NCBI RefSeq assembly: GCF_016522075.1
Contig: NZ_JAEHFW010000002.1
Span: 682,001-746,000, forward strand
Direction of reading: 5' to 3'
Origin: Mucilaginibacter segetis
GTDB lineage: Bacteria > Bacteroidota > Bacteroidia > Sphingobacteriales > Sphingobacteriaceae
DNA length: 64,000 nucleotides
Shown here: positions 8,142-44,626 of the stretch, piece by piece
Numbering within the stretch: the first letter of the stretch is position 1
Layout: the number at the start of each line of letters is the position of its first letter
Notes under the pieces: model-generated
What the model saw: the letters and a program-made list of their open reading frames with translations, nothing else
The model's database searches: none
What the model was told of the DNA's origin: nothing
Translations under genes and position numbers: made by a program

Positions 8142-10439
8142 TTATTTATTTGTACCAAATGGGAGATAGAAACCAAAGGTGATGTTTCTCCCGGGATTAT
8201 AAACCCCAAAAGTTGGATCTTCCTGACTATATCTACCAGGCCTTAAGCGGTTTAGGGCATCATAGTATTTTTTATTGGTTAAGTTATTCCCGGATATATA
8301 AACCTTTAACGGTTGAGAACCCAACTTAAAGGTTGTACCAATACCGGCATTTAACAAAGTATAGGCATCTGTCGGTGTTTCAAATGTGGCATCTATACGT
8401 GTTTGCTTAAAGTAATTATCAATACCTATAGAAGTATAAAAATCAGTAAGTCCTTTTATTTTTGGTTCAAAACGTAAAGTGTTATGCAAGCTGCCCGCGG
8501 GTATTAAAGGCAGTGGCCTGTCAAAAGTTTTATTTTGAGCATAGGTATATCCAAAAGTGTTCTCGAAATGCAAAAACGAAACTGGGTGAATAGTTAAATT
8601 GCCTTCTAAACCATAAAGATTTGCATTTACCTGGCCATATCGATATACATCTAAATTTCTGTCTGCTCCGCTACCTTCGTCAGTTACGGTTATTTGTTCA
8701 TTATTGGTATTGGAAGCATAAATAAAATTATGAATGTAATTCTCATATATTCCAAAACTGCCCGTAATTATTCCTGAACCATATTCGAGTGTTGCGTCTG
8801 TTTGATAGCTTCTTTCCGGGTTTAATCCGGCTGATCCTATTTCATAACGGTTGGTGCCTTCATGCACACCGTTTGATCCTAACTCAGCAGGATTAGGGGC
8901 ACGAAAGGCTGAACCTGCATTAGCCTTAAAGCTCAGATAATCATTAAACACATGAGTGTAGCCTAAAGCCCCGCTAACATTAGTGAATTTGTTGTCAAAT
9001 CCGGCAAAAACCTGCTCCCCCTCTTTTTGTAATGCTTTGCCATTATTACTAATAAAATCAAATCTTGCACCTGCACTAAAAGTGCTCTTTTCCCACGTTT
9101 TTTTAAGATAAACAAATGTACCTGCACTATATTCGTCATAGGCCGGTATCAGCAACTCTTCGCCTTTGTTTACGCTGTGTCCAAGGCTCCAGCTGGCGCC
9201 AATAACGGGTTTCCATCCATTGCTTTCGGGTAAAAAGTATTTGGCATCAACAGAGTAAGTGTTAAGATCGAAGAACAATGATGGAACAGGATTGTCCTCT
9301 AATTCTCTACGCTGATTTTTTTGGAAACCAAGGTCCAGTTTTAAAGACCCTGTACCAAAAAGAAAATTATTATTTAATGCGAGCTTGTAATGACGAACAT
9401 CTTGCCTTGGGTATTCCAATGTTCTGCTGGTGGAGTTATTATAAAGTTCATTTCCCGGATCAGCATCAAAAAACCCGATATTATTTTTAAAATAAGAGAA
9501 ATTTAAATGTGAATATCCCCACGCTTTGTTTACTCCAAGCATTCCGCTGAAATCTGTTTGATTGAAGCCGCTATTTTGATAATAACCAACTGGTGTTTTA
9601 AAGGAGTGTGCATTCTGATAAGTACCTCTTCCTCGCCAAACAAAGCCATCTTCGTTGCCGCTGAGCATAATCGAGGTGTTGCTTAGTCCGCTATTTGTGG
9701 AGTAGTTATCAAGTATCTCACCTTTTATATTGCCTTCGGCAGGAGTAGGTGGATCAATTACATTTATAACGCCTCCTAAAGCATCTGAGCCATACATCAA
9801 TGAAGCTGCTCCACGAAGAACTTCCACACGAGCTGCCTGAAACTGATCAATCTCAATACCATGCTCGTCACCAAATTGTTGCCCTTGTTGTTTAACACCG
9901 TCGCTTAAAGTAACCACGCGGTTATAGCTCAAACCCCGGATAACTGGTTTAGAAATGGCCTGGCTGGTGGTTATCTGGCTCACGCCTGGAACTTGTTTTG
10001 CCAAAGCATCAATAAGGTTAGTTGAAGTGCCCATCAATTGGTCTTTATTAACCACAGCAGCCGATGTGCTATTATACTTGCTGGAGGCAGTAACGGGTGT
10101 GCCGGTAATTACCACTTCATGTGCTTCAATTATAGATTGTTCTAAAGCAAAAACCAGTGGCTTTGTTGTTGAAAAATCTACTGTTTGAGTTAAAGTTTTA
10201 TATCCTACATATTGAACCTGTACCACAAATCTACCCTGAGCCGGTACCGATTTTAATGTAAATTCTCCATTGTTATTTGTGCCTACAGAGATATGTAATT
10301 CAGGTATGTTTATTACTGAGCCAGGAAGAGATTCACCTGTTTTAGCGTCAATAACTTTGCCTGTAATATTATTTGCACTTGCAAATGCTGAAATTTGTAT
10401 AAAGAGAAATAGAAAGCAACTAATTAATTTTAGTTTCAT
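8142..10439 (-). CDS. TonB-dependent outer membrane receptor
   Basis: 765 residues. A signal peptide is followed by a carboxypeptidase-regulatory-like domain (about 24-105, 'GKVIDAKTGESLPGS'), a TonB plug (about 115-225) and a 22-strand-type barrel ending in an aromatic residue region. The plug segment 'DEHGIEIDQFQAARVEVLRG' followed by 'YGSDALGGVINVID' resembles the ZnuD/metal-type receptors, where a similar H-G-x-x-I-D sequence occurs. This suggests a metal or metal-chelate ligand rather than a glycan, and no SusD partner is present. A small secreted His/Cys protein is encoded 62 bp upstream on the same strand, probably in one transcript. Confidence 0.88.
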   Translation of the reverse strand: MKLKLISCFLFLFIQISAFASANNITGKVIDAKTGESLPGSVINIPELHISVGTNNNGEFTLKSVPAQGRFVVQVQYVGYKTLTQTVDFSTTKPLVFALEQSIIEAHEVVITGTPVTASSKYNSTSAAVVNKDQLMGTSTNLIDALAKQVPGVSQITTSQAISKPVIRGLSYNRVVTLSDGVKQQGQQFGDEHGIEIDQFQAARVEVLRGAASLMYGSDALGGVINVIDPPTPAEGNIKGEILDNYSTNSGLSNTSIMLSGNEDGFVWRGRGTYQNAHSFKTPVGYYQNSGFNQTDFSGMLGVNKAWGYSHLNFSYFKNNIGFFDADPGNELYNNSTSRTLEYPRQDVRHYKLALNNNFLFGTGSLKLDLGFQKNQRRELEDNPVPSLFFDLNTYSVDAKYFLPESNGWKPVIGASWSLGHSVNKGEELLIPAYDEYSAGTFVYLKKTWEKSTFSAGARFDFISNNGKALQKEGEQVFAGFDNKFTNVSGALGYTHVFNDYLSFKANAGSAFRAPNPAELGSNGVHEGTNRYEIGSAGLNPERSYQTDATLEYGSGIITGSFGIYENYIHNFIYASNTNNEQITVTDEGSGADRNLDVYRYGQVNANLYGLEGNLTIHPVSFLHFENTFGYTYAQNKTFDRPLPLIPAGSLHNTLRFEPKIKGLTDFYTSIGIDNYFKQTRIDATFETPTDAYTLLNAGIGTTFKLGSQPLKVYISGNNLTNKKYYDALNRLRPGRYSQEDPTFGVYNPGRNITFGFYLPFGTNK

Positions 10440-43681: not shown

Positions 43682-43707
43682 AAAGCCCCTGATGGGCAGG
43701 GGCCTTT
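43682..43707 (-). other. Stable hairpin 3' of the tRNA-like RNAs
   Basis: AAAG-CCCCTG / CAGGGG-(C)-CTTT with a 5-nt loop and one bulged C. It lies 35 nt past the 3' end of the second tRNA-like RNA on the minus strand and lacks a long T run, so it may be a processing or protecting hairpin ahead of the terminator at 43612-43643. Confidence 0.5.
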
Positions 43708-43742
43708 ACTAACCAATTATAAACCTAAATTATGAGAAGAGC

Positions 43743-43857
43743 TGTAGGAGAAGGGGTCGAACCTTCAAAGAGTGGTTATTCTTATTTCTAAGAGTTTCCC
43801 AGAATCTCCGCCACCGCGACAAGGAGGTGTGTTTGCCAAAAATTTCACCATCCTACA
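43743..43857 (-). ncRNA. tRNA-like RNA A (class II cloverleaf with oversized variable arm)
   Basis: 115 nt on the minus strand. Acceptor TGTAGGA/TCCTACA (7 bp; an eighth C-G pair is possible), T8, D stem GTG/CAC with A14, GG and A21 in place, then A26. Anticodon stem CCTCC/GGTGG (central U-U) holds loop TTGTCGC, anticodon GUC. The variable arm is about 44 nt with stem GGAG...TGG/CCACTCT and hairpin TCTTA-GAAA-TAAGA. T arm GAAGG-TTCGACC-CCTTC, then discriminator G at 43742; CCA is not encoded. The D arm is leucine-like, yet the anticodon is aspartate. It may be a functional odd tRNA, a regulatory tRNA mimic or a decayed gene; compensatory changes against copy B argue against decay. Confidence 0.7.
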
Positions 43858-43886
43858 GGATATAATTCTGAATTGCTCAGAAGCGC

Positions 43887-43997
43887 TGTTGGGGAAGGGT
43901 TCGAACCTTCAAGGAGTGGTTAGCCCGCTTCGGGTTTCCCATAATCTCCGCCACCGGGACAAGGAGGTGTGTTTGCCAAAAATTTCACCACCCAACA
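43887..43997 (-). ncRNA. tRNA-like RNA B (paralog, first in the unit)
   Basis: 111 nt on the minus strand, 29 nt upstream of copy A. Acceptor TGTTGGG/CCCAACA; D arm identical to A; anticodon stem CCTCC/GGTGG and loop TTGTCCC (GUC). Variable arm with stem GGAG...TGG/CCACTCC and hairpin CCCG-AAG-CGGG. T arm GAAGG-TTCGAAC-CCTTC; discriminator G at 43886, no encoded CCA. Copies A and B share nearly all of the D, anticodon and T arms but differ in the acceptor stem and variable-arm hairpin by paired substitutions, so structure is under selection. A consensus promoter lies about 48 nt upstream. Confidence 0.72.
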
Positions 43998-44044: not shown

Positions 44045-44076
44045 CAAATTTAAAGCAGATGGTACTTTCTTGCAAA
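44045..44076 (-). promoter_or_regulatory. Consensus Bacteroidota promoter for the tRNA-like unit
   Basis: On the minus strand TTTG (44073-44076), a 20-nt spacer and TAAATTTG (44045-44052) match TTTG-N20-TAnnTTTG at every fixed position. The predicted start site near 44039 is about 42 nt before the 5' end of tRNA-like RNA B. No minus-strand protein gene lies between here and 43448, so the promoter is best explained by the RNAs. Confidence 0.65.
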
Positions 44077-44149: not shown

Positions 44150-44626
44150 ATGCCTCACAGGAAACCTCAAAATTTAGAAATTGATAATCTTGATATACAA
44201 ATTTTATCAATATTGATGAAAAATGCGACTACTCCTTACACGGAAATCGCGAAAGAGTTGATTGTTTCCGGCGGAACCATACACGTGCGGATGAAAAAAT
44301 TAGAGGAACTGGGTGTGATAAAAGGAGCCAGCCTGGAAGTTAATCCCCAAAAGTTGGGTTATGATGTCACCGCTTTCTTAGGCATATTTTTGGAAAAAGG
44401 CTCACAATATAACGATGCCGTAAAGCAATTAAAAGCAGTACCGGAAATTGTGGAGTTACATTATACAACTGGGCAGTGGAGTATTTTTGCGAAAATTGTC
44501 TGTCATGATACGAATCATTTGCGTGAGGTATTAAATGAGCAGATACAAAGTGTTAAAGGAATACAACGAACAGAAACATTTATATCTCTAGAAGAGAGTA
44601 TAAAAAGGCAAATTACATTGGAATAA
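44150..44626 (+). CDS. Lrp/AsnC family transcriptional regulator
   Basis: 158 residues. An N-terminal winged helix-turn-helix ('LDIQILSILMKNATTPYTEI' then 'AKELIVSGGTIHVRMKKLEE') is followed by a ligand-binding RAM domain (about 75-150) with 'VPEIVELHYTTGQWSIFAKI'. It senses an amino acid or related ligand. It is a single gene, divergent from the tRNA-like unit and sharing its intergenic region, followed by a terminator at 44641-44685. Confidence 0.9.
   Translation: MPHRKPQNLEIDNLDIQILSILMKNATTPYTEIAKELIVSGGTIHVRMKKLEELGVIKGASLEVNPQKLGYDVTAFLGIFLEKGSQYNDAVKQLKAVPEIVELHYTTGQWSIFAKIVCHDTNHLREVLNEQIQSVKGIQRTETFISLEESIKRQITLE

Follow-up and report, generated by a model that had tools for sequence, protein, structure and literature searches.

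For asparagine, glutamine, cysteine and selenocysteine, the last step of synthesis is known to take place on a tRNA, one that also takes part in decoding. In tRNA-dependent asparagine synthesis, U1-A72 is the pair that lets GatCAB accept Asp-tRNA-Asn for amidation, and both G1-C72 and U20a block it; G1-C72 and G2-C71 are strictly conserved in bacterial tRNA-Asp, for which G34, U35, C36, C38 and G73 are the five strong aspartate determinants (PMC9976931). For bacteria that have AsnRS, GlnRS and GatCAB and lack an asparagine synthetase, a 2014 survey proposed that a non-discriminating AspRS acts on tRNA-Asn, as has been shown for Bdellovibrio (PMC4206432). In E. coli the asparagine synthetase gene asnA is activated by AsnC, and asparagine abolishes this activation (PMC4482635).

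A tandem pair of tRNA-like RNAs and its family

The window (the whole 64,000-nt stretch of Mucilaginibacter segetis DNA that was analyzed) contains, at 43741-43997 on the minus strand, a tandem pair of tRNA-like RNAs adjoining a divergent regulatory gene. The features of the locus are as follows.

43997 to 43885, minus strand: tRNA-like RNA copy 1 (c1), 113 nt including G73 and C74, by direct reading
43991 to 43997, minus strand: 5' strand of the c1 acceptor stem, U1 pairing with A72 (43887) and G2 with C71
43956 to 43962, minus strand: c1 anticodon loop UUGUCCC, with G34, U35, C36, C38 and a pyrimidine at position 37
43911 to 43950, minus strand: c1 oversized variable region, 40 nt, with GGAG/CTCC and TGG/CCA stems, an internal loop and terminal hairpin CCCG/CGGG, with paired changes in alignments
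43857 to 43741, minus strand: tRNA-like RNA copy 2 (c2), 117 nt including G73 and C74, by direct reading
43816 to 43822, minus strand: c2 anticodon loop UUGUCGC, with G34, U35, C36 and C38 as in c1
43767 to 43810, minus strand: c2 oversized variable region, 44 nt, with terminal hairpin TCTTA/TAAGA, with paired changes in alignments
43682 to 43706, minus strand: intrinsic terminator-like hairpin 3' of c2
44045 to 44052, minus strand: TAAATTTG, a match to the TAnnTTTG promoter element, 48 nt before c1
44150 to 44626, plus strand: asnC-like gene for an Lrp/AsnC-family regulator, divergent from the RNAs, by profile and structure matches

Direct reading confirmed the original prediction of two tandem minus-strand tRNA-like RNAs with a full cloverleaf and oversized variable arms: both copies have a 7-bp acceptor stem, a 3-bp D stem, a 5-bp anticodon stem with a U29-U41 mismatch, and a perfect T arm. 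The interval first given for the pair, 43743-43997, was right except that it omitted G73 and C74 of c2. The copies scored 134 bits (c1) and 125 bits (c2) with the CM R1, and c1 scored 113 bits with R2. ARAGORN, a standard tRNA finder, called no tRNA in the window and so misses both c1 and c2; Rfam at the gathering threshold with fast filters gave no match over the whole window, and neither copy was among the 39 tRNAs listed when the genome was searched with RF00005. The prediction that the shape corresponds to no named family held to the extent that none was found, yet c2 passes the generic Rfam tRNA model (RF00005) in a local search, with 32.5 bits against a gathering threshold of 29. Because the single-sequence folding energies were no better than those of shuffles (z of +0.23 and -0.30 for the two copies), the case for c1 and c2 rests on comparison.

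When 33 sequences were aligned with MAFFT, blind to structure, pairing held in 93.8% of cells and 12 pairs were doubly changed, whereas none of 500 shuffles was as good and slid structures gave 48-57% pairing. With 73 distinct genome-derived sequences, in an alignment that was fitted to the structure and leans towards it, 97.2% of cells pair and 21 of 31 pairs are doubly changed. Covariation in the family is well beyond chance. Paired substitutions in both alignments support the helices, bearing out the earlier claim that structure has been kept while sequence changes; the accompanying possibility of decayed tRNA genes lacking homologues or covariation was checked, and both were found.

The family has an acceptor stem of consensus UGNNNNN/NNNNNCA followed by G73 and C74, a core of 3-bp D stem and 5-bp anticodon stem, and acceptor and T arms of 7 and 5 bp throughout. 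U1-A72, G2-C71, U35, G73 and C74 are kept across the family, as nearly always are C36 and C38. (The pattern-based sets A5 and A6 were chosen by the T arm and an ACAGC end, and the conservation of such bases is quoted from the genome-derived set A4 only.) The variable region, about 40-125 nt in most members, comprises a 4-bp basal stem, a second stem of 2-3 bp, an internal loop in which RAAA or AYAAA faces CUAA, and a terminal part that is at its smallest a short hairpin and at its largest about 100 nt. An element of the GGGUUGACCAC type is found in 47 of 168 host sequences and in 39 of 61 viral sequences. The long variable arm is not essential to the family, since a 77-nt member in G094 (L428:1538-1614; Hymenobacter-like family f49) lacks it, with anticodon loop CUAUCUC and a score of 70 bits, and some viral copies are only 83-89 nt.

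Examination of ordinary tRNAs of the window genome (L142, L134 and other loci) indicated that only the first C of CCA (C74) is encoded in those read; in these, CA must be added post-transcriptionally. Since the family likewise encodes C74 alone, 3' maturation of the tRNA-like RNA probably follows the tRNA route.

Distribution and the neighboring asnC-like gene

Of 36 congeneric genomes, 35 have homologues, usually as pairs, and R1 gave long matches in 68 of the 395 genomes of the class. A second model, R2, built from 74 long R1 matches, was used to scan the phylum, where members scored about 99-124 bits and measured 109 to about 200 nt; lower scores were obtained for a few named matches (from 86.7 bits) and for viral members (from 71 bits). 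Matches of ~80-88 nt at 50-70 bits were rejected as apparently ordinary class II tRNAs, those checked being tRNA-Leu or tRNA-Tyr, and the arm-less G094 copy is the exception to the score gap between members and such tRNAs. R2 also picked up three genomes that belong to a different class of the phylum and have as many as three copies in tandem. Named carriers include Mucilaginibacter, Pedobacter, Chitinophaga, Terrimonas, Algoriphagus, Cyclobacterium, Belliella, Hymenobacter, Pontibacter, Fulvivirga, Neolewinella, Saprospiraceae and one Ignavibacteriales MAG, and no tRNA-like RNA was detected in family f54 and several other families. The full member on a contig labelled Ignavibacteriales (L177:3131-3241; 118.7 bits) may reflect horizontal transfer or a misbinned contig.

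Many of the carriers are soil and water bacteria, and the family extends to viruses, among them large phages that may well infect such bacteria. The tRNA-like RNA is carried by 72 of 80 pattern-matched IMG/VR contigs, some of which may really be host sequence wrongly classed as viral. For example, on L297, which is part of a 238-kb viral contig, it lies beside 16 ordinary tRNAs, including a normal tRNA-Asp, and an unannotated 636-kb record of an uncultured phage, the sole blastn match in an annotated phage collection, carries a relative. tmRNA was found separately in some viral contigs. Other oversized tRNA-like sequences occur on the same viral contigs (L330:4587-4706 and 9979-10112, L347:737-907, L366:7213-7350, L320:6150-6300), several of them with acceptor AGTCAGG/CCTGACT and long inserts; their R2 scores are 42-45 bits. 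ARAGORN called no tRNA on L330 and L347, and a second odd tRNA-like group may exist in viral contigs.

The product of the gene divergent from the RNAs matched the NCBIfam AsnC model NF008384 best of all models (E 1e-53; 181 bits, the equivalog cut-off being 227) and the Lrp model with only 57 bits, and its best PDB match was E. coli AsnC (2cg4, E 1.5e-38). In the window the divergent region spans 152 bp. Of 132 host loci with sufficient flanking sequence, 82 have a divergent asnC homologue 122-377 nt from the RNA. The remaining loci, about 40%, lack an adjacent asnC; in these no asnC homologue was found elsewhere in the locus, and no other conserved neighbor was seen by eye. None of the 61 viral loci has an asnC homologue, nor was asnC found beside asnB or asnA of non-carriers. 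Upstream of c1, TAAATTTG matches the Bacteroidota -7 promoter element, consensus TAnnTTTG, which occurs upstream of 96 of 158 host copies compared with 17 of 158 in a control region.

Identity elements and the association with gatB

Anticodon-loop statistics were drawn from 228 distinct sequences, in which U35 is found in 228, C36 in 226, C38 in 223 and G34 in 212; G73 is present in every genome-derived member, so that the family bears the AspRS identity set G34/U35/C36/C38/G73. The G2-C71 pair of bacterial tRNA-Asp is likewise present (73 of 73 genome-derived sequences). The G1-C72 pair is replaced in all 73 by U1-A72, the first pair recognized by GatCAB; in the window genome itself, tRNA-Asp has G1-C72 and tRNA-Asn has U1-A72. 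U33 is universal in decoding tRNAs. T33, listed as invariant in the original prediction, is indeed present in both window copies, but family-wide U33 holds in only 174 of the 228 sequences and is lost in 54, and at position 37, 190 sequences have U and 17 have a purine. The positions read by AspRS are thus kept, whereas two that decoding requires drift.

Position 34 is C, U or A in 12 of 167 host sequences (Hymenobacter, Pontibacter and others). Among the genomes concerned, G365 has neither AsnA nor AsnB and G224 has AsnA, and in these non-G34 members recognition may be relaxed or function lost. G224 and G404 encode short AsnRS-like proteins (G224:C2:595933-596853, G404:C1:2542190-2542744) that consist of the catalytic part only, with no anticodon-binding domain, and recall AsnRS-derived asparagine synthetases; the RNA anticodon of their group is CUC.

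Given the U1-A72 signal, we predicted before testing that carriers have GatCAB and may lack asparagine synthetase. The presence of GatCAB was judged from gatB. No gatA or gatC was recognized adjoining it. Among 45 chosen genomes, gatB was present in all 29 carriers and in two of 16 non-carriers; AsnRS was found in all 45 and GlnRS in 25 of the 29 carriers. Since both of the non-carriers with gatB are without GlnRS, their GatCAB is explained by glutamine. Class-wide, strong gatB matches were obtained in 68 of 68 carriers. When only the 136 genomes with GlnRS are considered, 41 have both RNA and gatB, none has the RNA without gatB, nine have gatB without the RNA and 86 have neither, i.e., gatB is found in 41 of 41 carriers compared with nine of 95 non-carriers (Fisher 2e-26, with kinship ignored and nine weak gatB matches scored absent). 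Moreover, within families f1, f36 and f2 the RNA and gatB are jointly absent from some genomes and present in sister genera. GatCAB is otherwise unneeded in the carriers with GlnRS, because AsnRS and GlnRS are both present, as they are in the window genome.

Eight of the nine exceptions are genomes of family f12, whose gatB scores are lower, and the ninth is from the same genus as a carrier. The f12 genomes (G047, G092, G129, G162, G193, G223, G249, G276) have GlnRS, no detected RNA and gatB at E of about 1e-93 to 1e-99, the usual values of 1e-110 to 1e-125 being stronger. Weak gatB matches (E about 1e-40), which may stem from remnants of the gene or from a diverged GatB, were seen in the GlnRS-containing genomes G095, G164, G177, G195, G208, G312, G364 and G384.

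With respect to asparagine synthetases, AsnA was found in two of the 29 carriers, and an AsnB of ~560 aa (a profile match in two pieces) in 13 of the 16 non-carriers and none of the 29 carriers. Neither AsnA nor AsnB was above cut-off in eight of these 29 carriers, the window genome included. Many carriers do encode long AsnB-like paralogues of 600-640 aa, which may make asparagine.

Proposed function, alternatives and known systems

We propose that c1 and c2 belong to a largely non-decoding tRNA-like family whose members are probably dedicated RNA carriers on which asparagine is synthesized. AsnC, sensing asparagine, would control the divergent RNA promoter, and the transcript would undergo tRNA-like processing with completion of CCA. 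AspRS would read G34, U35, C36, C38 and G73 and attach aspartate, GatCAB would read U1-A72 and amidate the RNA-bound aspartate to asparagine, and hydrolysis of the Asn-RNA ester would yield free asparagine for AsnRS. Release, which would have to be fast enough, is the weakest step of this scheme. The unusual anticodon loop and the big variable arm would together keep Asn-RNA off GAC and GAU codons. Confidence in the carrier reading is tempered by the non-G34 members, including that of G365 with no AsnA or AsnB, by the AsnA or AsnB-like proteins of other carriers, by U33 in most copies including both in the window, by the f12 exception and by loci at which asnC is not adjacent.

The leading alternative, which we regard as unlikely, is that asparagine is made by the known route, with a non-discriminating AspRS acting on tRNA-Asn together with GatCAB, and that the RNA, without being the substrate, regulates, scaffolds or buffers AspRS and GatCAB or senses the supply of aspartate or asparagine. 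Bdellovibrio, with one AspRS, AsnRS, GlnRS and GatCAB and no asparagine synthetase, provides a precedent, and the survey places Bacteroidetes in that group (PMC4206432). Consistent with this alternative, the tRNA-Asn of the window genome has the amidation pair as well, and gene association alone cannot tell a substrate from a regulator. However, the RNA itself bears the identity signals for AspRS and GatCAB, and the anticodon-binding region of carrier AspRS resembles that of gatB-less relatives with no consistent difference. Since the AspRS of gatB-less relatives must be discriminating and that of carriers is alike, this speaks for the RNA as substrate but falls short of proof. His at the position of L30 in E. 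coli AspRS marks the non-discriminating enzyme, and Sphingobacteriaceae AspRS has Leu there, by alignment to the E. coli sequence.

It appears improbable that the RNA is instead a tRNA-Asp isoacceptor used in decoding, with an exceptionally long variable arm. The anticodon GUC in most members, the normal T arm, U33 in c1 and c2 and the location beside ordinary tRNAs in viral contigs are what such a tRNA would have, but U33 is lost in 54 of 228 sequences and purine 37 is nearly absent. In addition, U1-A72 would expose Asp-RNA to amidation and hence cause mistranslation, a normal tRNA-Asp is already present in the window genome and on viral contig L297, and the association with gatB and AsnC would be left without a reason.

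Charging by SerRS, as for allo-tRNAs or tRNA-Sec, with a role in serine-related suppression or regulation, is more doubtful still. The class-II-like body with its long arm and G73 would suit SerRS, and GUC is frequent among allo-tRNA anticodons (PMC7609411). On the other hand, the acceptor and T arms are 7/5 rather than 8/4 or 9/3, U1-A72 and mostly U11-A24 stand in place of the SerRS elements C72 and C11-G24 (PMC9976931), and arm-less versions exist (77 nt in G094, 83-89 nt in viruses). The near-invariance of U35, C36 and C38 would also go unexplained, since the anticodon is not read by SerRS. Identity as an allo-tRNA was rejected on the same 8/4 or 9/3 arm criterion, and identity as tmRNA was rejected since there is no tag reading frame, the anticodon arm is full and Ala G3-U70 is lacking. 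Finally, a decayed or chance tRNA-like sequence, which would account for the silence of ARAGORN and for folding no better than shuffles, is refuted to within a negligible residue by covariation, distribution, promoter-element enrichment and conserved AsnC linkage.

The original prediction gave no function and missed the aspartate identity elements, U1-A72, the AsnC neighbor, the link to GatCAB and the viral copies. If the carrier reading is true, a separate, largely non-decoding biosynthetic carrier RNA would represent a new division of labor, would explain why many Bacteroidota keep GatCAB despite having AsnRS and GlnRS, a question left open by the 2014 survey (PMC4206432), and would supply the missing asparagine route for species annotated as auxotrophs. 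The viral copies would fit asparagine supply during infection, and the presence of the RNA in large phages suggests an auxiliary metabolic gene of an RNA type. By a narrow balance of judgment, we further favor the view that this is a dedicated metabolic tRNA, one that works for a free amino acid and not for translation, takes the place of a protein asparagine synthetase, shares with asnA its control by AsnC, and serves phages as an auxiliary metabolic RNA.

No description of the family was found in the open full-text literature, where absence is no proof. Several described systems share features with it. Like tmRNA, it is a stable tRNA-like RNA with a predicted non-decoding role. Like allo-tRNAs and tRNA-Sec, it is a non-standard, class-II-like tRNA with G73, but it differs from them in its 7/5 arms, its conserved anticodon-loop identity elements, and its phylogeny and linkage. 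With RF00005 and the class II tRNAs (Leu, Ser) it shares the cloverleaf, a D arm in the style of tRNA-Leu, a canonical T arm and the C74-only 3' end of the window genome; it departs from them in the ~40-125-nt variable region of most members with its internal loop and extra hairpins, in the aspartate identity elements and U1-A72, and in the lost constraints on U33 and R37. As in the AsnC/asnA system of E. coli, an AsnC-type regulator adjoins a predicted asparagine-making gene, although here the regulator is predicted to act on an RNA gene and not on that of the enzyme AsnA, and the regulation is itself a prediction. The closest likeness is to tRNA-dependent asparagine biosynthesis on tRNA-Asn in Deinococcus, Thermus and Bdellovibrio, with which the family is predicted to share AspRS-type charging, GatCAB and U1-A72, and which likewise meets the lack of AsnA and AsnB in cells that also have AsnRS. 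That route, however, uses a non-discriminating AspRS and has as its carrier the ordinary tRNA-Asn of decoding, whereas the RNA predicted to be the carrier here is a separate one, which has an aspartate anticodon, an oversized arm, a poorly conserved decoding loop and an adjoining asnC. The family thus works, as we read it, like tRNA-dependent asparagine synthesis, and what is new is a separate, oversized and largely non-decoding RNA that is apparently devoted to it, lies by asnC and is common to large phages.
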